From assembly GCA_947471905.1 (NCBI GenBank), contig CANIZT010000007.1, positions 1 through 34,063 of the forward strand: a stretch of DNA of 34,063 bases, written 5' to 3'. A program made the position numbers and the translations under genes. The notes under the pieces were generated by a model that saw nothing but the letters and a program-made list of their open reading frames with translations, was not told the DNA's origin and made no database searches. The DNA is from Verrucomicrobiaceae bacterium (GTDB lineage: Bacteria; Verrucomicrobiota; Verrucomicrobiia; Verrucomicrobiales; Verrucomicrobiaceae). Shown here piece by piece: positions 2,748 through 33,072 of the stretch (position 1 is the stretch's first letter; each line of letters opens with the position of its first letter).

Positions 2748-3237
2748 GGATTGCTTCTTGGCCGAACGACTCGGATCAGGCGACGGCGAGCGCAAGACGT
2801 TGCTGACACGACAGATAGCCTTCGAGCCGTTGTCTGCATCCGTTTTGGTGTGCCCAGCATGGGCGCAGTCCTGATGGGGTTCAAGTCCCCTGTATGAAAA
2901 CCAACACATGACGAAAACATACTCATGAAAATTCCAGCCGAAGTCAAGGTTCAGCGAGTGATCGCTGGGCTGAAAGAAGAATAGGCAAGACCCGCGAGCC
3001 GATGAACAAGAACCTCATACAAGGCCGGTGCGACGAGGCGAGCTGGCCAAACACAGCGAAGCCATGTGGTTTAGTCGCGCAGGTAAATGAGGCGGCTGTG
3101 CGGGGGAGGACTGCGTTCTTACCTGGGGAGGTCTGCGCCGCGAGAGCGGTGCAGAAGTCAGCAGAGGTCATAGTAGCTCGTCACGAGCCGGGGGCCGCCA
3201 TGGCCCGTTTAAACTCGACACCGGAGGTCTTGAGACG

Positions 3238-4647
3238 ATGAAGGGCCGAACCAATCAGTTGCCAAGTGACCCCGCGCCGGGGAGCGAGTCCGCCAATGCC
3301 AGGGCGCACAGGACAAGCTCAACTCAGCGCGGTGGGAAGCATAGCGAGGCATCAGCAGAGACAGAGACGTGGCTGGAGCAGGTGCTCGACGCCACGAACA
3401 TGCAGCGCGCCTGGCAGAGAGTCAGGCGCAATCGCGGAGCGCCGGGCATGGATGGGATGACCATTGATGAGTTCCCGGCGTTTGCCCGCGAGCACTGGGA
3501 GCGCATCCGCTCCCAGCTCAAGGAAGGGACGTATCACCCAGCGCCCGTGCGCCGTGTTTACATCCCCAAACCCGATGGGTCGCAGCGGCCCCTCGGAGTT
3601 CCGACGGTGCTGGATCGAGTGATCCAGCAGGCCATCGCCCAGGTGCTCACACCGCTCTATGACGGCGAGTTCAGCGAACACAGTTACGGCTTTCGCGAGG
3701 GCCGCAATGCCCATGCGGCAGTGCGCCGAGTGCAAGCCGGCTGGGAGCTAGGACTTTGCCACGCGGTTGATTGCGACTTGAAGGCGTTCTTTGACACCGT
3801 GAACCATGATCGACTCCTGGGCGCACTACGCGAAAAGATCGGCAGCGGGCAACTGCTGCGCTTGATCGGACGCTACCTGCGCGCCGGAGTCGAGCTGCCC
3901 GACGGCACCCGCGAGGCCACCCCTCAAGGCGTGCCACAGGGCGGACCCTTGTCACCGTTGCTAGCCAACATCGTGCTTGATCCACTGGATAAAGAACTCG
4001 AACGCCGCAGGCATCACCATGCCCGCTACGCCGACGACTTCATCATCCTAGTGAGAAGCGCGAAAGCCGCGCAGCGCGTGATGCAGAGCGTGGCGAACTA
4101 TGTCGAAAACAAACTCAAGCTCAGCGTCAACCGCCTCAAGAGCAAAAGTGGCCCACTGAGCCAGAGCCAGTTCCTCGGCTTTCAAATCAACCGCCGAGGA
4201 CAGGTGAAGTGGACAGCAAAAGCGCTCACGAGGTTTAAGCTGAAGATCAAAGAGATCACCCGCCGCAATCGCGGCCACGCCGTGCAGGACGTCATCGACG
4301 AACTGCGCCGCTATGCCGTAGGCTGGATGAACTACTTTGGCATCAGCCACACCAGCCGTGGAGTGCTGGAGCTGGACGAATGGATCAGGCGGCGAGTGCG
4401 GCTCTACTATTGGAAACAATGGAAAAGGCCGCGCACCCGCAGGCGCAACCTCATCAAGCTGGGGATCAATCCCAGCGTGGTGTTCAAAGCCAGCCGAAGC
4501 CGCAAAGGGTACTGGCGCATGAGTCAGAACAGTCTGGTGCGCATTGCGCTGAACAACCGCGTGCTAAAGGAACGGGGAGTCCCCGAATTGAGAAGTATCT
4601 GGATCAAGCTGCATCACCGAGACCAGGCGCAAGCCAAAGCTCAGTGA
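3238..4647 (+). CDS. ltrA: Group II intron reverse transcriptase/maturase
   Basis: This 469-aa protein shows the reverse transcriptase blocks in order: GAPGMDGMTIDEF (RT0), YIPKPDGSQRPLGVPTVLDR (RT1), YGFREGRNAH, DCDLKAFFDTVNHD (first catalytic Asp at residue 180), TPQGVPQGGPLSPLLANI, RYADDF (YADD at residues 264-267) and FLGFQI. A maturase domain X follows (VGWMNYFGI, then a basic RRVRLYYWKQWKRPRTRRR). There is no C-terminal HNH endonuclease. It would help the intron RNA splice and reverse-transcribe it at new sites. The N-terminal 40 residues are Ser/Gly/Arg-rich and variable. All catalytic residues are present and the frame is unbroken. The ATG at 3238 starts about 390 bp into the intron, leaving room for the 5' part of domain I, and the stop is about 8 nt before domain V. 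Confidence 0.95.
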   Translation: MKGRTNQLPSDPAPGSESANARAHRTSSTQRGGKHSEASAETETWLEQVLDATNMQRAWQRVRRNRGAPGMDGMTIDEFPAFAREHWERIRSQLKEGTYHPAPVRRVYIPKPDGSQRPLGVPTVLDRVIQQAIAQVLTPLYDGEFSEHSYGFREGRNAHAAVRRVQAGWELGLCHAVDCDLKAFFDTVNHDRLLGALREKIGSGQLLRLIGRYLRAGVELPDGTREATPQGVPQGGPLSPLLANIVLDPLDKELERRRHHHARYADDFIILVRSAKAAQRVMQSVANYVENKLKLSVNRLKSKSGPLSQSQFLGFQINRRGQVKWTAKALTRFKLKIKEITRRNRGHAVQDVIDELRRYAVGWMNYFGISHTSRGVLELDEWIRRRVRLYYWKQWKRPRTRRRNLIKLGINPSVVFKASRSRKGYWRMSQNSLVRIALNNRVLKERGVPELRSIWIKLHHRDQAQAKAQ

Positions 4648-7106: not shown

Positions 7107-7469
7107 AAAGCATTTCCCTGCCGTGAGGTCACGGCAGGGAAAACCAGGGGTGGTGCCCTGGGGGTTCGTGCGGGCAAAACAGCGGGGCGGTCTTGCGTTT
7201 GAGGCCGCCCCGCTCGTTGGAGCAGGGAGTCGTGGCAGAAACAGGCCGGTCCAAAAAGCGGTGCTCCAATTTCCCTAAATCTGGGAATGATTGCCCACGG
7301 AATACACGAAAGGCACGGAACATGAAAGCTTTGCCGGATTCTCACCACTCACCCAAAAGGTGAAGTGCACTTGGAGCCCCCCAAGCCTTATCATTCCGTG
7401 ACATCGGTGAGTTTCGTGGGCCCTATCTCCGTTTCTAGGTTTCCTCGCGTTGGACATCTTCCCCAGCCT
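7107..7469. other. Intergenic region with two strong hairpins
   Basis: It contains the 14-bp hairpin at 7113-7142 and a second 10-bp stem, AGCGGGGCGG (7181-7190) with CCGCCCCGCT (7205-7214) around a 14-nt loop. I see no convincing gene. The frame of the next gene is open back to 7365 but lacks coding character before 7470. Confidence 0.5.
7113..7142 (+). terminator. Perfect hairpin downstream of the FN3-like gene
   Basis: TTTCCCTGCCGTGA (7113-7126) pairs perfectly with TCACGGCAGGGAAA (7129-7142), starting 7 bp after the stop codon. No T-run follows on the plus strand, so intrinsic termination is uncertain. It could instead protect the 3' end of the mRNA. Confidence 0.5.
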
Positions 7470-9209
7470 ATGCTATCCGCACGGCCCATGTTTTCCGCCC
7501 GCACTCTCGTTTCTGTCCTAGCCCTTGCTCCCGCGTTTCTCGGCGCTGCGGAGAAGATTGATTTCAATACGCAGATCAAGCCGCTGCTCGAAGGGGCTTG
7601 CACGCATTGCCATGGTGAGAAGGAGGACAAGGGTGACTTCCGCATGCACACGCTGGAGGACATGAAGAAGGGCAATGAAAATGGCCCTGGTCTGACTCCC
7701 GGCGATCTGAAGAAGAGCTCCATCTACACGACGCTGCTGCTGGCTCCCGGGGAAGATACGGCGATGCCACCGAAGAAGGAAGGCCTGCTGGAAAAGAGTC
7801 AGATCGAGGTGATCAAGGCCTGGATCGAGCAAGGGGCGAACTGGCCTGCGGGCGTGGTGCTGGAGCAAACACCACGCATCAAGTTCGAGAAGCACATCCA
7901 ACCGATCCTGGAACAGAACTGCGTGTCCTGCCACAATCCGGATAAGGCGAAGGGCGACTGGATCCTCACGACGAAGAAGGAAGCCTTCAGCACGGGTGAG
8001 AACGCGCCGAACATTGTGGCCTTTGATTTGAAGAGCGCGATTTATCATGTGACGACGCTGGCGGCAGATGATGACGATTTGATGCCGCCGAAGAAGAGCG
8101 GCGGGCCGTTGAGCAAGGAAGATATCAATTTCCTCAAGCTATGGATTCAGCAAGGCGCACCGTGGCCGGATGATCTGAAACTGACCGCGAAGGAAAAGAA
8201 AGCCCCTGGCACGAACAATCCCGACACGCTGGAGCTGGTGAAGAAGATTCACGCGTTCATCGTGCAGACCTCGAAGGAGAAGAAGGAAGCGGAGATGAAG
8301 CCGTATGATTCAAAGATTCCGAAGACGGGCATTCCTTTCAGCATGGTGGCGATCAAGGGAGGCGATTTCCTGATGGGCAGCCCTGAGAGTGAGGCGAATC
8401 GTGGCGATGACGAAGGCCCGCAGGTGAAGAAAGCGATCAAGCCGTTCTGGATGGGCAAGTATGAAGTGACGTGGGATGAGTATGAGCCCTTCCAACTCAC
8501 GAACATGGGTCGTAACAAAGATGGTTCCCGCCAAGTATGGAAGCCAACGGACAAGCCCGAAGATCTGATCTCCCAGCCGACGCCGCCGTATCAGCCGATG
8601 GATTTCGGCATGGGCCGTGATCATATGCCCGCCATCTGCATGACGCAGCATGCGGCGAACAAGTACTGCCAGTGGCTCAGTGCCCAAACAGGACACTTTT
8701 ATCGCCTGCCAACGGAAGCGGAGTGGGAATACGCGGCTCGTGCCGGCACGAAGACGGCGTATTTCTTTGGCGACGATGCCGCACAACTCAAAGAGTATGC
8801 GTGGTACTTCGACAACGCGCCGAACTTCCAGTACTCGAAAGTGGGAGCCAAGAAGCCGAACCCGTGGGGCCTCTACGACATCTACGGCAACGTCTGCGAG
8901 TGGTGCCTGGACCAATACACTCCCACGATGCCAGCGGCAGCCATCCTCGGCAATTCGTGGGTCCCATCGAAGACGGCCTATCCGCACGTCGCCCGTGGTG
9001 GCACCTATGATGATGATCCCGAACTCTGCCGCAGTTCAGCGCGCAAAGCATCCGATGCGTTGTGGAAGCAGCAGGACCCCCAACTTCCGAAGAGCATCTG
9101 GTACCTGACCGATGCAACGTGGCTGGGCTTCCGCATCGTGCGTCCGCTGGAGATTCCGACGGTGGAAGAGATGTTCGCCGCTTGGAACAACGGTGTGGCG
9201 AAAGAATAG
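7470..9209 (+). CDS. FGE/SUMF1-like domain protein with two N-terminal c-type heme motifs
   Basis: This 579-aa secreted protein starts with a signal peptide ([19 protein letters not shown]). Two planctomycete-type cytochrome domains follow, each with a heme site: CTHCH at residues 44-48 and CVSCH at 151-155. Both have the IKPLLEG / IQPILEQ lead-in and the MPPKK motif typical of such domains. From about residue 289 ([22 protein letters not shown]) to about 560 (LGFRIVRP) lies a formylglycine-generating-enzyme-like domain ([18 protein letters not shown]). In true FGE two Cys near the C-terminus bind copper. Here the first position falls in RGGTYDDDP and is Asp-rich, and only Cys520 (ELCRSSAR) remains, so sulfatase activation is unlikely. 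A perfect terminator follows. I chose ATG 7470; ATG 7488 is an equally good start. Confidence 0.88.
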
Positions 9210-25666: not shown

Positions 25667-25796
25667 GGTCTTGTCAGTTCTTTGCGCTACCAATTTTCCC
25701 ATGCCGTTTCTTTGATGTAATAAGACAGCAGGCTTGCGGAATTCGCAGCAAACATCCAGTCTCCGGCCCCGTATTGCCAAGCCTTCAATCCCAACC

Positions 25797-28700
25797 ATGA
25801 AACCACTGCTTTGTCTTTTTCTCGCCATTACCGCCACTTTGCCCGTCCGAGCGGATCTCGAGCTTAAGCAGGGAGATCATATCGCCATCGTCGGCAGTGG
25901 CGTGGCGGATCGCTCGCAGCATTTTGGATGGCTGGAGGCCATGATCACGGCGGCGAATGCGGATATAGACCTCACGTTTCGCAATCTGGCCTTTGCAGGG
26001 GATGAAGTCGGCACGTGGCACCGCATCGACGGCTTTGGTTCACGTGACGAATGGCTGAAGAAGGTGCAGGCGGACGTGATTTTCGCCTTCTACGGCTTTA
26101 ACGAGTCATTCAAAGGCTATGAAGGCATCGACGCCTTCAAAAAGAACCTCATCAAGTTCATTGAGGACACCAAGAAGCAAAACTACAGCGGCAAAGGAGC
26201 ACCGCGTATCGTACTGTTCTCCCCCATCGCATTGGAGAAGCTCGCTGATCCGAATTTGCCAGCCGTCGATGATAAGAATACGAATATCCAGAACTACACT
26301 GCCGCGATGAATGAAGTCGCTGCGGCGAATGGCGTGACCTTTGTCGATCTTTTTGCTCCGACGTCCAAGGGCTACGCTGGAAAGCCCGGCACACTCAATG
26401 GCCTCTTCCAAAATGATCATGGCGACCAAGTCATCGCCAGTGCGGCTTATGCGGCACTCACGGGCCAAAAATCACCCGATGTGAGCCCCAAACTGCTATC
26501 CGCGATCCAGGACAAGAACTGGGAGTGGTATCAGCGCTACCGCACTGTCGACGGCTACAACGTCTATGGTGGCCGCAGCGGACTTGCTTACACGGCGGGT
26601 GTGGGTGCTTTCAAACAGAACGAGCAGAACCCGGAGAAGCCTTATATCTCCAATTTCCAAACGATGAAGCAGGAAATGGCGCAGCGTGATCAGAAGACGG
26701 CCAATCGTGACCTCCGCGTGCATGCCGTGGCTAAAGGTGGCGATCTTGAAGTCAAAGACGACAACTTACCTCCGGTTGAGAAAGTTCCCTCCAACATGCC
26801 CAACCCCAAAGAGGGCAAGGATTTCAACAAGGTGCCGATGACGGGCATGAAGTTCACCGAAGACGGTCTTGTGGCCTTCCCGGATGCGAAGGAAGCGATG
26901 AAGGACATCACCGTGCACAGCGGCATGAAGCTCACCTTGTTTGCCGATGAAAAAGAGTTCCCGCAGCTCGTGAATCCCGTGCAGATGGCTTGGGATACCA
27001 AGGGCCGCCTGTGGGTCGCTGCTTGGCTGAACTACCCCGAACGCACACCGACCAGCAAGAATGGCGATAGCCTGCTCATCTTTGAAGACACCAACGGCGA
27101 TGGCCATGCGGATGTCTGCAAGACCTTCGTCGATGACCTGAACTGCCCCACCGGCTTCCAGATTTACAAGAACGGCGTGATCGTCATGCAAAGCCCGAGC
27201 CTTGTGTACATCGAGGACACCGATGGCGATGACAAGGGCGACAAGCGCACGCGCATCCTCACCGGCCTCTGCGCAGCGGATTCGCATCACGAAACTTGCT
27301 ACCTCGCCTATGACAATGGCGGCGCGATTTATCCGAGCGATGGCGTCTTCCATCGCACGCAAGTTGAAACGCCCTATGGCGTCGTGCGCAACACCAACGG
27401 CAGCATTTATCGCTACGACCTCAATGCCCAGAAGTTCGAGCGCTTCACCACGTATTCATGCACCAATCCGCACGGCAAAATCTGGGATCGCTGGGGCAAT
27501 GGTTACTTCACCGATGCCACTGGCAACGTGAACACGCTCTCCGAGCCGTCGAGTTGCTACATCCCCATGGAAGGTGGAGGCAGTGCGAAAATGGAAGAGT
27601 TCTGGAAGCGCCCTGCGCGTCCGTCTCCTGGCAGTGGCTTGCTGGTGAGTCGTCATTTCCCTGAGGAATTCCAAAACAACTTCCTCAACACCAACGTCAT
27701 CGGCTTCCAAGGCATCTGGCGCGTGAAGCTCTCTCAGGAAGGCTCTGGCATGAAAGGCGAGACGATGGAAGACCTCGTCAAAGCCGACCCCGCTGTGTAT
27801 CCGACCTTCCGACCTTCCTGCGTCAGCGTCGGCAGCGATGGCGCCCTTTACTTCTGTGATTGGGCCAATGCCATCATCGGTCACATGCAGCACCATTTGC
27901 GTGATCCGAACCGCGACCACGGCCACGGCCGCATTTACAAGATCACGTATGCAGGTCGCGATCTGCTCAAGCCTGCCAAAATCCACGGTCAGCCGCTACC
28001 AGCGTTGCTCGATCTTCTCAAAGAGTGGGAAGATGTCACTCGCCAGACCGCCAAGATCGAAATCGCCAAGCACAGCCGAGAAGACGTGCAGGCCGCTGTC
28101 GCCAAATGGGTCGCAGCACTCGACAAAAGCGACAAAGAGTATGAGCACCATCGTCTTGAGGCCCTGTGGACGCTGCAATGGAACGGCATCGTCGATAGCG
28201 CTCTGCTTCAGGCCGTTTTAAAATCTACCGAGCCACGTGCACGTGCCGCTGCCACGCGAGTTCTCTGCTATCAGAAAGACAGCATGCCCAATGCACTCGA
28301 ATTGCTCAAAGTCGCCGTAAATGACCCCGGCATGGCCGTGCGCATGCAAGCCGTCCGAGCCCTCAGCTTTTACCAGCCCACTGATAAAGCTCAGCAGGCA
28401 CTCGAAATCGCCTATGACGTGCTCAAGCATCCAACCGACTACTACATTGACCACGTCTTCTCTGAATGCAGCAAAGGCCTGCAATCCGTGCTGAAATCCA
28501 AAGTGCTGCCAAAAGATCCGCAAGCGCTCGCCGAGTTCATCGCCAAGACCACCGATGCCGATCTCAAAGGCATGCCTGATCTTGAACCCGTGCTCGTCGA
28601 AAAACTCACGCGGCCCAAACTCACCGCCGATGTCCGTGTGAAGGCCCTCGAAGAACTCGCCAAAATCACCGGCAACGACACCCCCATCGTCCTCATCGAC

Positions 28701-29753
28701 ATGCTCAAGCGCATCGAGGCCGCTGGCGGTAAACTCAACTCCAGCGCCGACGACTTGGGCAAGCTCCTCGTTGCGCAAAACGTCAATCTGCTCGCCCGCC
28801 ACGGCAAACTGATCAAAGCACTCGCGCAAGAAGCCAAACAAGCCCCCGTGAAGCGCGCCAGCTATGCCGCCTACATCATCGGCAACAAAACACCCGACAA
28901 CCTCTGGACCGCCACCACCGACGGCGGCGAGCGCGGCTACATCATTGAGTCCATCGCCATCATCCCCTCCAACGAGGCCGCCTTGCGTGCCAAATTTCAG
29001 CCGCACCTCAGCGCGTTGCTCACCGATGGCAAAACCAACGGCGGACGCCTTCGCGCGGTGCTCACCGCACTGCCACTCATGGGCGCTGAAAACGCCGCCG
29101 CTAACTTCAAAATCGTCGCGCAACACCTCATCGACGGCAAAGAGCGCAACACCGCTGCCAAAGCCATCATGAAGTTCCCCAAAGCCAACTGGGACGCCGC
29201 ATTCGCCAAACCCATCACCGACTCCGTGCTCGCCTACGGCAAAACCGTGAAGCCGCAGGATCGCAGCAAGCCCGACTACGTCGAAATCATCGCCGCCACC
29301 AAAGAAATGGCCACACTGCAAGGCGACGCTGGTAAGGCTATCCTCGCCGAATTGAAGACCATCAGCGTCGATGTCTTCATCGTCCACACCGTCCATGAGC
29401 AACTCCGCTTCGACACCACCAAACTCGAAGTTCAGGCTGGTAAGAACTTCGAAATCATCTTCGATAACGACGACGTCATGCCGCACAACCTCGTCATCGT
29501 CCAACCCGGCAAACACATGGAAATCGGCACCGCCGCCATGACCATGACCCCCGACAAGCTCGACAAACAAGGCCGCGCTTTCATCCCCTCCGCCTGGGAC
29601 AAACAAATCCTCGCCGCTACCAAACTCCTCGAGCCCGGCCAAAGCGAAACCATCAAACTCAAAGCCCCAAGCCAACCCGGCGAATATGAATTCGTCTGCA
29701 CCTTCCCAGGTCATGCTGTCTTGATGTGGGGGACGCTGAGTGTGACGAAGTAA
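25797..29753 (+). CDS. Giant PVC fusion: SGNH hydrolase, membrane-dehydrogenase propeller, HEAT repeats, azurin-like domain
   Basis: This 1,318-aa exported protein starts with a signal peptide (MKPLLCLFLAITATLPVRA). Domains in order: an SGNH/GDSL-hydrolase-like domain (about 20-235; IVGSGVADRS, NLAFAGDEVGTW, FYGFNESF, NDHGDQVIA); a beta-propeller of the PVC putative membrane-bound dehydrogenase type (about 385-740; VQMAWDTKGRLWVAAW, FEDTNGDGHADVCKTF, DTDGDDKGDK, RPSCVSVGSDGALYFCDW); HEAT-like repeats (about 770-1190; AAATRVL, GMAVRMQAVRAL); and a type I copper domain with His1230 (MPHN), Cys1301, His1306 and Met1310. The Cys-x4-His-x3-Met spacing equals that of azurin, so it probably transfers electrons. 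No CxxCH heme site is seen. Substrate is unknown. ATG 25797 is chosen for the signal peptide. Confidence 0.88.
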   Translation: MKPLLCLFLAITATLPVRADLELKQGDHIAIVGSGVADRSQHFGWLEAMITAANADIDLTFRNLAFAGDEVGTWHRIDGFGSRDEWLKKVQADVIFAFYGFNESFKGYEGIDAFKKNLIKFIEDTKKQNYSGKGAPRIVLFSPIALEKLADPNLPAVDDKNTNIQNYTAAMNEVAAANGVTFVDLFAPTSKGYAGKPGTLNGLFQNDHGDQVIASAAYAALTGQKSPDVSPKLLSAIQDKNWEWYQRYRTVDGYNVYGGRSGLAYTAGVGAFKQNEQNPEKPYISNFQTMKQEMAQRDQKTANRDLRVHAVAKGGDLEVKDDNLPPVEKVPSNMPNPKEGKDFNKVPMTGMKFTEDGLVAFPDAKEAMKDITVHSGMKLTLFADEKEFPQLVNPVQMAWDTKGRLWVAAWLNYPERTPTSKNGDSLLIFEDTNGDGHADVCKTFVDDLNCPTGFQIYKNGVIVMQSPSLVYIEDTDGDDKGDKRTRILTGLCAADSHHETCYLAYDNGGAIYPSDGVFHRTQVETPYGVVRNTNGSIYRYDLNAQKFERFTTYSCTNPHGKIWDRWGNGYFTDATGNVNTLSEPSSCYIPMEGGGSAKMEEFWKRPARPSPGSGLLVSRHFPEEFQNNFLNTNVIGFQGIWRVKLSQEGSGMKGETMEDLVKADPAVYPTFRPSCVSVGSDGALYFCDWANAIIGHMQHHLRDPNRDHGHGRIYKITYAGRDLLKPAKIHGQPLPALLDLLKEWEDVTRQTAKIEIAKHSREDVQAAVAKWVAALDKSDKEYEHHRLEALWTLQWNGIVDSALLQAVLKSTEPRARAAATRVLCYQKDSMPNALELLKVAVNDPGMAVRMQAVRALSFYQPTDKAQQALEIAYDVLKHPTDYYIDHVFSECSKGLQSVLKSKVLPKDPQALAEFIAKTTDADLKGMPDLEPVLVEKLTRPKLTADVRVKALEELAKITGNDTPIVLIDMLKRIEAAGGKLNSSADDLGKLLVAQNVNLLARHGKLIKALAQEAKQAPVKRASYAAYIIGNKTPDNLWTATTDGGERGYIIESIAIIPSNEAALRAKFQPHLSALLTDGKTNGGRLRAVLTALPLMGAENAAANFKIVAQHLIDGKERNTAAKAIMKFPKANWDAAFAKPITDSVLAYGKTVKPQDRSKPDYVEIIAATKEMATLQGDAGKAILAELKTISVDVFIVHTVHEQLRFDTTKLEVQAGKNFEIIFDNDDVMPHNLVIVQPGKHMEIGTAAMTMTPDKLDKQGRAFIPSAWDKQILAATKLLEPGQSETIKLKAPSQPGEYEFVCTFPGHAVLMWGTLSVTK

Positions 29754-29857: not shown

Positions 29858-32173
29858 ATGCCCCGCATTCTCTGGCAAAACATGAACATCACCTGGCTCG
29901 CTGCCGTGGTGGTGGTTTTTGTCATCGCGCTGCTCTGGCTTGGCTATCGGCGTTCGCCATTGCGTGGCTGGAGACGGTTGGCGGCCATGCTGTGCAAGCT
30001 CATGGCTCTCGCGTTGCTCGCGCTCTGCCTGCTTGATCCGCTGTGGACGCGGCAGCAGCCGAAGAAGGGCGAGAACGAAGTCATCGTGCTGATGGATACG
30101 AGCGCTTCGCTCGATACCGCAGAGAAAGCGGGGGAACCGACACGCGCAGCACAAGTCACCGTTGCTGTGACGTCTGGCGATGAAGATGCGGCATGGATCA
30201 AGGCACTGAGCGAAGATTTCCGGCTGCGTTTGATGACCTTCGGATCGCAGACCCAAAGCGTGCCGCACTTCCGGGCGCTAAAATTCGACGGCTCCCGTTC
30301 CGATCTCTGCCGCACGCTCATGACCTTGCGCAGCGGCGGGTCCAATCTCGCGGCGGTGGTGGTCATCAGCGACGGCAATGCTACCGATGTCTCGGCTTGG
30401 AAGGCGGAGGCGAAAGGCGCGCCCATTTTTACCGTGCTGGCCGGCAAAAATGCTCCGACGCCTGATCTGGCTCTGCTGGATGCCACTGTGGCAACGAGTC
30501 CGTTTGAAGATGCGCCGATTACCATCACGTCACGTGTTGTCGCGCATGGTTTGAATGGCAAACAGGCCACGCTTTCCGCGCTCGATGAACAGGGCAAGGC
30601 CATCGTGACCGAGAAAGTCACCTTCAATGGCGACTCGCCACAGACCGTGCGCCTGCGCATACCGGTGGCGAAACCAGGCGTTTCGTTTCACAAGCTCGAA
30701 CTCAAGACGGAAGGGGTCAAAGAAGCCACTCTGGCCAATAATACGCGTCTCTTGGAAGCGGATCGTGGTTCGGGCCCCTATCGCGTTCTATATGTCGCGG
30801 GCCGACCGAACTGGGAGTATAAATTTCTGCGCCGTGCCATTGCGGGTGATGACGACATTCAGATGCCGAGCCTCGTGCGTATCGCCAAACGCGAGCCCAA
30901 GTTCGAATGGCGCGGCCATGCCGGTGAAAGCGCCAATCCGCTGTTTCGTGGCTTTGGTGCGAAGGAGGGTGAGGAATCCCAGCGCTACGACCAGCCCGTG
31001 TTGATTCGGCTCGGCACTCGCGATGGCAAGGAACTCAGCGACGGCTTTCCGAAGTCCGCCGAAGATCTGTTCAGCGAGTATCGCGCGATCATCATCGACG
31101 ATCTCGAAGCCTCCTTCTTCACGCAGGAGCAGATGCATCTCATCGAGCGATTCGTCAGCGAGCGCGGTGGTGCGCTGCTAATGCTCGGCGGACAGGAATG
31201 CTTCCAGGCGGGCGGCTATGATCACACCCCGATCGGGCGCATGCTGCCGGTTTACATGGATCGCACGACCAACGCAGGACCGATGCTCGATGCGCGCTTC
31301 AATTTGACCCGCGAAGGCTGGCTGGAGTCGTGGATGCGGCTGCGCACCGACCGCGAGGACGATGAGAAGCGCCTGAGCGCGATGCCCGCGTTCCATTCGA
31401 TTAATCAAACGTTCTCGATCAAGCCCGGTGCCAGCATTCTGGCGACGGTGTCGGATGCTTCTCAGACCGCGGTACCAGCGATCGTGTCCCAGCGCTTCGG
31501 CGAAGGACGCGTGGGGAGCGTGCTGGTGGCCGATCTGTGGCGCTGGGGCATGAACGATGCGGATTCACGCAAGGACATGGAGCGTGCGTGGCGGCAGCTC
31601 ATGCGCTGGCTCGTCGTCGATGTGGCCGACAGCATCACCTTCAATGTGGAAGCCGATCCCGCCGACATTGAGCGCGTGAAGTTGTCCGTGCGAGTGCGTG
31701 ATCGTGCCTTCAAAGCTCATGGCGATGCGCTGGTGAAGATCGAAGTCACGCAGCCAGATGGCAAGAAATCACAGCTCTTCGCCGAACCCAGCCTCAAAGA
31801 AGCCGGACTGTTTGAAACCGAGTTCTTCTCCGCGAACTCCGGCAACTACCGCGCCATCGCGAGTGTGGAAGACATGGAGAAACGCACACCACTTGGCACC
31901 AAGACCACCGGTTGGGCCTACGGACCGCAGGCTGAGGAATTCAGCCGTCTGGAACCAGACAAAACCTTCCTGCAACGCATCGCCAAGGAAACGAACGGTC
32001 AGATGATCGCGCTCGATGAGATCACCAAGCTGCCGGAGATGCTGAAGAACATCCGTGTGCCGATTGAGGTCACTCTTTCCACACCGCTGTGGCATTCACC
32101 GTGGGTGTTTGTGATTTTGCTGCTGCTGCTCGGTGCCGAGTGGTTTTTGCGCAGGAAGGGAGGCATGGCATGA
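29858..32173 (+). CDS. Membrane-anchored VWA / glutamine-amidotransferase-like protein
   Basis: This 771-aa protein has two N-terminal transmembrane helices (WLAAVVVVFVIALLWL and LCKLMALALLALCLL) and one near the C-terminus (WVFVILLLLLGAEWFL, then RRK). A VWA-like domain with MIDAS motif DTSAS (Asp80-Ser82-Ser84) and VVVISDGNATD follows the first pair. Then come beta-rich repeats and a region like class I glutamine amidotransferases (YRVLYVAGRPNWEYKFLRRA, FVSERGGALLMLGG, VSQRFGEGRVGSVL). Proteins of this build often occur with MoxR ATPase and DUF58/BatA-type genes in PVC bacteria; no MoxR gene is in this window. The ATG of the caspase-like gene overlaps its stop (ATGA), so the two are coupled. 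Start ATG 29858, or 29882 for a shorter N-terminus. Confidence 0.82.
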   Translation: MPRILWQNMNITWLAAVVVVFVIALLWLGYRRSPLRGWRRLAAMLCKLMALALLALCLLDPLWTRQQPKKGENEVIVLMDTSASLDTAEKAGEPTRAAQVTVAVTSGDEDAAWIKALSEDFRLRLMTFGSQTQSVPHFRALKFDGSRSDLCRTLMTLRSGGSNLAAVVVISDGNATDVSAWKAEAKGAPIFTVLAGKNAPTPDLALLDATVATSPFEDAPITITSRVVAHGLNGKQATLSALDEQGKAIVTEKVTFNGDSPQTVRLRIPVAKPGVSFHKLELKTEGVKEATLANNTRLLEADRGSGPYRVLYVAGRPNWEYKFLRRAIAGDDDIQMPSLVRIAKREPKFEWRGHAGESANPLFRGFGAKEGEESQRYDQPVLIRLGTRDGKELSDGFPKSAEDLFSEYRAIIIDDLEASFFTQEQMHLIERFVSERGGALLMLGGQECFQAGGYDHTPIGRMLPVYMDRTTNAGPMLDARFNLTREGWLESWMRLRTDREDDEKRLSAMPAFHSINQTFSIKPGASILATVSDASQTAVPAIVSQRFGEGRVGSVLVADLWRWGMNDADSRKDMERAWRQLMRWLVVDVADSITFNVEADPADIERVKLSVRVRDRAFKAHGDALVKIEVTQPDGKKSQLFAEPSLKEAGLFETEFFSANSGNYRAIASVEDMEKRTPLGTKTTGWAYGPQAEEFSRLEPDKTFLQRIAKETNGQMIALDEITKLPEMLKNIRVPIEVTLSTPLWHSPWVFVILLLLLGAEWFLRRKGGMA

Positions 32174-33072
32174 AGCATCTGTTGTTCATCCTTCTTGCCA
32201 GCACACTGCATGCCGCGCCGCGTGCGCTTGATGTCGTGATCGTCGTCGGCGCTCCTGGCGCCGAGGAATACGGTAAAAAATTCACGGCGCAGGTGAATGC
32301 ATGGACAACGGCCTGTACCAAAGCGGGGATCGCTCCGGAAATCTATAGTGGAGAGAAAACAACCGCAGAACTCGAACAGCGTCTCTCCAGGTCCAAGCCC
32401 GATCGTTCGCTGTGGCTCGTGCTCATCGGTCACGGCACGTTTGATGGTCGTGAGGCCAAGTTCAGCGCGGAAGGGCCGGATTTCGATGTGAAGCAGTTCT
32501 CCGACTGGATCAAACCGCTCAAGCAGGAAGTCGCGATCATTCATACCGCCTCCGCCAGCGGCGGCTTTTTGAAATCGTTGTCGGGAAAGTCACGAATCGT
32601 CATCACCTCGACGAAAAGTCCCGATGAAGTGTTCTATGCGCGTTTTGGCGAGCACTTCGCGGAAGCCATTGGCGGCTTGGCGGAAGCGGATCTCGATCAG
32701 GACAAACAGGTGTCACTGTTGGAAGCTTTCCGCCATGCCAGTAAGGCCGCGGCGACGTATTACGAGAACGAAGGCCGACTGGCGACGGAGCATGCGCTCA
32801 TCGACGACAACGGCGATGGTGTCGGCACGCGCTATGAAATGATCGAGGGCGCAGCGGATGGGGATCGTGCGTCACAGCTCGTGCTGGTGCTCAGTGAGGA
32901 AGAGCAAAAGCTCACGGATGCGCAGCGGAGCACACGTAATGGACTCGAGCGTGATTTGAAGTCGCTCAAGGAGCAGCGCACGAAGCTGAGTGACGACGAG
33001 TATTACACCAAGCTCGAAGCACTGATGAGGAAGCTGGGCGAGGTTTACGGATCATCCCGCCCCACCACGTAA
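32170..33072 (+). CDS. Exported caspase-fold (C13-like) protein with substituted nucleophile and two EF-hand-like loops
   Basis: This 300-aa protein has a signal peptide (MKHLLFILLASTLHAAP). The core is a caspase/legumain-like fold: VVIVVGAPGAEEY, WLVLIGHGTFDG with the catalytic-type His88, then IIHTASASGGFLKSL and RIVITSTKSPDEVFYARFGEHFAEAI. In active members a Cys-x-Ser-Gly motif follows the second strand; here it reads Ser128-Ala-Ser-Gly, so the Cys nucleophile is missing and the protein is probably a non-peptidase. Two Ca-binding-like loops follow: DLDQDKQVSLLE (174-185) and DDNGDGVGTRYE (212-223). The C-terminus is a charged coiled coil. It is translationally coupled to the VWA protein and may act with it. 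Confidence 0.8.
   Translation: MKHLLFILLASTLHAAPRALDVVIVVGAPGAEEYGKKFTAQVNAWTTACTKAGIAPEIYSGEKTTAELEQRLSRSKPDRSLWLVLIGHGTFDGREAKFSAEGPDFDVKQFSDWIKPLKQEVAIIHTASASGGFLKSLSGKSRIVITSTKSPDEVFYARFGEHFAEAIGGLAEADLDQDKQVSLLEAFRHASKAAATYYENEGRLATEHALIDDNGDGVGTRYEMIEGAADGDRASQLVLVLSEEEQKLTDAQRSTRNGLERDLKSLKEQRTKLSDDEYYTKLEALMRKLGEVYGSSRPTT

Follow-up and report, generated by a model that had tools for sequence, protein, structure and literature searches.

A legumain-fold protein family without the catalytic cysteine, paired with a split-VWA membrane protein and linked to Bat/MoxR-type operons

The window, i.e., the whole stretch of DNA analysed here, comprises 34,063 nucleotides of contig CANIZT010000007.1 from a Verrucomicrobiaceae bacterium (assembly GCA_947471905.1). 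Two genes on its forward strand are the subject of this report. Gene 1 runs from an ATG at 29858 to a stop ending at 32173 and encodes a membrane protein of 771 amino acids; gene 2 (32170 to 33072) encodes a predicted-secreted, legumain-fold protein of 300 amino acids without the catalytic cysteine of that fold. The two are coupled by an ATGA overlap at 32170-32173, in which the start codon of gene 2 lies within the stop of gene 1. An initial annotation had described both reading frames, their coordinates and the overlap, together with a histidine (His88) and a Ser128-Ala-Ser-Gly motif in the second protein, and a re-reading of the sequence recovered every one of these as claimed. The dN/dS ratios of the two genes, 0.07-0.11, indicate purifying selection on both, so the pair is not a chance product.

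The caspase-like fold that the initial annotation had proposed for gene 2 is upheld by structural comparison. An AlphaFold2 model made from 40 homologues has a mean pLDDT of 93.3, and its best solved match by VIA-align is legumain 4nol (Z 19.4, 2.2 A, 183 residues), followed by metacaspases, the catalytic subunit of the GPI transamidase (8imx_K, Z 16.4) and then caspases, while Foldseek returned caspases, MALT1 and legumain-type ligases at E values of 1e-7 to 1e-5. Comparison at the level of the fold was needed because sequence searches of the solved structures, with the single sequence and with a profile, gave chance matches only. In Pfam, gene 2 scores 20.9 bits against Peptidase_C13 (PF01650), narrowly below the cut-off of 22.8, and has no match to Peptidase_C14. 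From the model we assign gene 2 with confidence to the legumain (C13) fold. The protein resembles legumain and its C13 relatives (4nol and PIGK of the GPI transamidase) in fold, in the histidine of a GHG motif and in an x-S-G motif at the end of strand 4, but its family is without the catalytic cysteine throughout, adds calcium-type loops and a C-terminal helical hairpin, and stays under the Pfam cut-off. Its first 16 residues (MKHLLFILLASTLHAA, 32170-32217, forward strand) read as a Sec signal peptide and a hydrophobic N-terminal segment is found in 34 of the 40 homologues, which makes secretion plausible.

At the active site, His88, in the GHG motif at the position of the catalytic histidine of C13 peptidases and caspases (32431-32433, forward strand), is invariant. 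The register of the other catalytic position was fixed by a profile-profile alignment against 20 C13-type domains that do bear the cysteine and come from the same phylum; with a probability of 97% and an E value of 4e-11, it places HTASASGG opposite DCCESGSF. Ser128 (32551-32553) therefore occupies the site of the catalytic cysteine, and Ser130 (32557-32559), which starts a helix spanning residues 130-137, corresponds to the S of C-x-S-G, both on the forward strand. Position 128 was read in a set of 67 homologues and later in sets of 70, 14 and 21 (the last from Planctomycetota), which overlap and together hold about 100 distinct proteins from the Verrucomicrobiota, Planctomycetota and Acidobacteriota. 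The residue is mostly Ser, otherwise Ala, Pro or Thr, and Cys in none, whereas Ser130 is nearly invariant across these sets (Gly in one relative) and most of the GHGTFDGREAKF segment is strongly conserved. The claim that the cysteine is missing and the histidine kept thus stands, and the alignment of homologues that the initial annotation had proposed turned up a variable position 128 with no cysteine in any close relative.

Judged from these homologues, the loss of the catalytic cysteine is old and fixed in the gene 2 family. A recent mutation or an assembly error, by which a working protease would appear without its cysteine in one lineage or contig, might be suspected in a draft genome of 465 contigs that is 78% complete, but the same state in about 100 relatives from three phyla excludes it, the low dN/dS also speaks against it, and we give this explanation next to no weight. 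The initial annotation had also raised a Ser-based activity, and gene 2 might on that basis be an active hydrolase in which Ser128 or Ser130 acts with His88. The retention of His88, Ser130 and most of GHGTFDGREAKF in essentially all relatives would fit such an enzyme; Ser128, however, gives way to Ala, Pro or Thr in relatives whose other features are all intact, and because the position itself varies we have rejected Ser128 as the nucleophile. Nor does the conservation of Ser130 need catalysis to explain it, since this residue begins a helix, is Ser or Ala also in Cys-bearing C13 proteins and is Gly in the one relative already mentioned; a structural role would suffice. Taken together, an active hydrolase is improbable; the strong conservation of His88, Ser130 and GHGTFDGREAKF may nonetheless leave room for some other chemistry at the site.

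The two EF-hand-like loops that had been noted in gene 2 are real and recur in all relatives. The first (DLDQDKQVSLLE, residues 174-185, 32689-32724, forward strand) presents D174, D176, D178, S182 and E185 in a DxDxD...S..E pattern that is found in essentially all family members; the second (residues 212-223, starting D212-DNGDG, 32803-32838, forward strand) carries D213 and D216, which are invariant in the DDNGDG motif of essentially all members. In many planctomycete proteins the loop reads DLDKDGQVSLLE, a canonical EF-loop pattern, and Pfam EF-hand_5 gives weak matches to 7 of 40 family members. That gene 2 binds calcium through these two loops is a good prediction from the conserved side chains.

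Gene 1 has a more intricate architecture than had been described. The initial annotation rightly placed a MIDAS-bearing VWA domain in a membrane protein but missed an insertion of about 500 residues that splits this domain and holds a PF07090 domain. The first part of the VWA domain (residues 69-195, 30062-30442, forward strand) carries the MIDAS residues D80-x-S82-x-S84, S148 and D172, of which D80, S82 and D172 are invariant in the gene 1 family, position 84 is S or G and position 148 is S or T; the last part (residues ~700-738, 31955-32071, forward strand) comes directly before the C-terminal transmembrane helix. That the domain is split follows from the VIA-align matches to VWA structures, which cover residues 68-737 of the model yet align only ~146-150 residues (for 4fx5, Z 15.7 over 149 residues, drawn from model residues 69-735). 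The insertion contains beta-sandwich domains and a glutamine-amidotransferase-like (GATase1-like) domain, PF07090 (residues 306-589, 30773-31624, forward strand), which was located by Pfam and VIA-align and scores 28.4 bits against a cut-off of 27; all 34 of the 34 family members match it at E <= 0.01. This middle domain resembles the PF07090 GATase1-like proteins 3soz (Z 22.5) and 3rht of Planctomyces limnophilus (Z 22.4), but differs from them in that it sits inside a VWA domain, within a membrane protein, and has mostly Ser at the nucleophile position. That position is residue 448, in the loop that we take to be the one expected to bear the nucleophile of class I amidotransferases; it is Ser in 28 of 34 family members and Cys in 5, the window protein being among the latter, and since Ser prevails, we doubt that the domain is a conserved amidotransferase. 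Foldseek searches with the whole protein were headed by GH2 glycosidases (TM ~0.12), which we set aside as multi-domain noise in favour of the VIA-align results. VIA-align also listed OST48/Wbp1 (residues 306-696, rmsd ~12 A), a match on which no weight is placed.

Hydrophobic segments at residues ~9-31, 38-58 and 748-767 of gene 1, all helical in the model by DSSP, together with a basic stretch between the first two, lead us to infer that residues ~62-745 would lie outside the cytoplasm. Both proteins are thus predicted to be extracytoplasmic in their main parts.

Gene 1 and gene 2 travel together. Among 56 related genomes, 40 have both genes, 15 have neither and a single discordant one (G034) has gene 2 alone, at a contig end (Fisher p ~1e-12, a value that ignores kinship); the co-occurrence on which the initial annotation had staked its pairing is therefore nearly perfect. 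Clustering in the named genome collection found gene 1 directly upstream of gene 2 in 51 of 55 loci. As for the four others, two lie at contig ends (L051 and L078), one has a gene 1 that is present by BLAST and was missed by the clustering (L065), and one has gene 1 elsewhere in the same genome (L056). In two phylum samples gene 1 adjoins gene 2 in 40 of 40 strong matches, and in 37 loci the stop of gene 1 is overlapped by an in-frame ATG or GTG. Pairwise distances for the two proteins are correlated (r = 0.91), which mostly reflects species descent.

A search for MoxR and DUF58 genes near homologues, which had been suggested together with the original claim, found them in distant relatives. 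In four loci (L090 to L093), the order is MoxR (AAA_3), DUF58, BatA-type VWA, DUF4175, gene 1, gene 2; the operons of two of these, from Singulisphaera acidiphila (L090) and Verrucomicrobium (L091), were scanned with Pfam, and in the latter a TPR protein precedes the MoxR-type operon. The gene that immediately precedes gene 1 encodes DUF4175 in 22 loci, and in 3 others DUF4175 is there in part. Within the genus of the window, the two genes stand apart from the Bat/MoxR operon, beside unrelated genes, and the DUF4175 homologue of the window genome is on another contig (C157); the pair has moved away from the operon as a unit in this genus.

This separation would suit a signalling or conflict module that stands by itself, with no tie to the envelope operon; caspase-like effectors are known from MoxR-vWA conflict systems, which occur in some of these phyla (PMC7159879). 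Set against such a module are the predicted extracytoplasmic location of both proteins, the ancestral Bat-like neighbourhood with DUF4175, and a set of partners that is constant rather than varied; a PADLOC search for anti-phage defence systems also gave no match. We regard a conflict module as highly improbable.

The neighbourhood of the pair recalls the Bat and MoxR-DUF58-VWA operons of Bacteroides (BatI), Leptospira (bat) and Rhizobium (RL3499-RL3502), as MoxR, DUF58 and a BatA-type VWA protein lie beside the pair in the distant relatives. It differs from them in that DUF4175 and VWA/GATase genes adjoin gene 2 and in that a legumain-fold subunit is absent from the accessible portions of the published descriptions of those operons. 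MoxR-VWA pairs are seen as chaperone-like factors that help protein complexes to mature, and in Rhizobium the MoxR protein RL3499 has effects on both membrane integrity and cell morphology (PMC3893208); deletion of the Leptospira bat genes, on the other hand, gave no clear phenotype (PMC3557215). By analogy with these systems, the gene pair would have a role in envelope assembly.

A second branch in the Planctomycetota bears on what the operon slot might require. There, the same slot, downstream of BatA, DUF4175 and a gene 1 homologue, is filled by weaker relatives of gene 2 (~105-150 bits). Three of these (L189, L190 and L191) have Cys128 as well as the GHG motif; in L192 and L193, which are sisters of the three, position 128 is Ser. 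One of the three Cys128 members is above the Pfam cut-offs for both C13 and C14, the latter by a small margin. All three also share Cys137, and a Cys128-Cys137 disulphide instead of a catalytic cysteine is possible from the paired residues. Cys128 and the two calcium-type loops are also combined in one further relative, L188, whose neighbours are different. In a tree of C13-like proteins, which is too deep and gappy to root either loss or regain of the cysteine, the mixed Cys/Ser state falls within this second subfamily with support of 97/85. The slot thus accepts proteins with and without the nucleophile, which suits a subunit that binds more than one that has to cleave.

Binding could also take the form of a decoy or inhibitor, in which the C13 cleft of gene 2 would hold peptides without cutting them, e.g., in order to control an active peptidase. 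The cleft region and His88 are retained with the cysteine gone, Cys-bearing C13-type proteins occur in the phylum, and pseudo-caspases such as cFLIP, which work in this manner, provide a precedent (PMC6426788). The pair, however, is mostly single-copy per genome and goes with an envelope operon, and C13 matches were found in only 20 of 388 genomes of a phylum sample, so that no widespread active target is apparent; a decoy of this kind seems to us unlikely.

The reading that we favour, with moderate confidence, is that gene 2, paired with gene 1, supplies a Bat/MoxR-type envelope complex with an extracytoplasmic subunit that is stabilised by calcium and does not act as a protease. Gene 2 would be a pseudopeptidase, i.e., a legumain-fold domain that has lost its nucleophile and acts by binding, and calcium in the two EF-type loops would stabilise it. 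Gene 1 would be its partner in the inner membrane, whose MIDAS-type VWA and amidotransferase-like domains would face away from the cytoplasm, and the two proteins might be in direct contact, possibly through the MIDAS. Together they would form the extracytoplasmic end of a complex with the MoxR ATPase, DUF58, the BatA-type VWA protein and DUF4175. The initial annotation had considered a calcium-responsive, non-proteolytic signalling or scaffold pair. A scaffold pair loaded with calcium fits the absence of Cys128, the near-invariant loops and the co-occurrence of the genes; signalling, or a response to calcium rather than structural calcium, would be a further possibility, and the Ser-based alternative is improbable. 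A bolder version, which we hold only tentatively and consider doubtful as it stands, is that Bat/MoxR-type machines throughout the PVC group and the Acidobacteria carry a calcium-gated pseudolegumain that docks on the MIDAS of its partner, with the nucleophile lost or regained within the slot.

Pseudo-caspase-fold proteins as such are already known. Among bacterial orthocaspases, 8.6% are without the catalytic dyad, Tyr-Ser being the commonest replacement, and 90% of these pseudo-orthocaspases are from Alphaproteobacteria or Cyanobacteria (PMC6426788). They share with the gene 2 family a caspase fold and a loss of the dyad that is fixed in lineages, but they are of the C14 p20 type, whereas the gene 2 family is C13-like, keeps its histidine, is predicted to be secreted, belongs with an envelope operon and comes from other phyla. 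Searches with partial coverage of the literature returned neither a description of a pseudo-variant of C13 type that is predicted to be secreted and encoded in a Bat-like operon nor any paper on bacterial or inactive legumains.

Widespread as Bat/MoxR operons are, what they do has been an open question for decades. Gene 1 and gene 2 name testable extracytoplasmic subunits for operons of this type, and the gene 2 family adds a C13-type branch to the bacterial pseudo-caspases, which have been described mainly as C14 proteins of Cyanobacteria and Alphaproteobacteria. A constant partner with an inactivated peptidase fold, along with versions of the same slot that bear a cysteine, offers a handle for separating binding from cleavage and, if the bolder version of our reading is true, the operon slot would show a protease that has become a structural or sensor subunit.

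The VWA domain of gene 1, the membrane protein gene that precedes the pseudolegumain gene (gene 2), spans window positions 30062-32071 and appears to be interrupted by an insertion of ~500 residues, which contains the GATase-like domain and beta-sandwiches, with the final VWA strand and helix adjoining the C-terminal transmembrane helix. Two further paralogues of gene 1 are encoded in the window's own genome (G000), at C10:28051-30180 and C156:4227-6440, and no partner resembling gene 2 was found at either of them. Larger genomes contain up to about a dozen places that match gene 1.

Elsewhere in the window, a group II intron occupies positions 2952-4647: Rfam's group-II-D1D4 model hits 2952-3118 and 3119-3195, and the ORF for a reverse transcriptase/maturase comes after them, at 3238-4647. 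Other coding regions specify a fusion of Planctomycete cytochrome c (PSCyt1) and FGE-sulfatase-type domains (7365-9209) and a 1339-aa protein with GDSL-like lipase, DUF7133, HEAT and C-terminal cupredoxin domains (25734-29753).

Further legumain-like relatives from Verrucomicrobiota (loci L122 to L130) likewise lack Cys at position 128, and several form the N-terminal portion of larger proteins. The 455-aa relative at L188 (7684-9048, minus strand) carries Cys128 (CHSGG) together with both calcium-type loops and is possibly an active, calcium-dependent C13-type peptidase; the BatA-DUF4175-gene1 operon neighbours are absent around it. The slot that gene 2 holds in that operon is occupied by a second C13-like subfamily in the Planctomycetota loci L189-L193. 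Cys128 and Cys137 are both present in L189 (9297-10388), L190 (8766-10043) and L191 (2132-3376), whereas their sisters L192 and L193 have Ser128, which makes the two sets a natural pair for comparing active with inactive forms.
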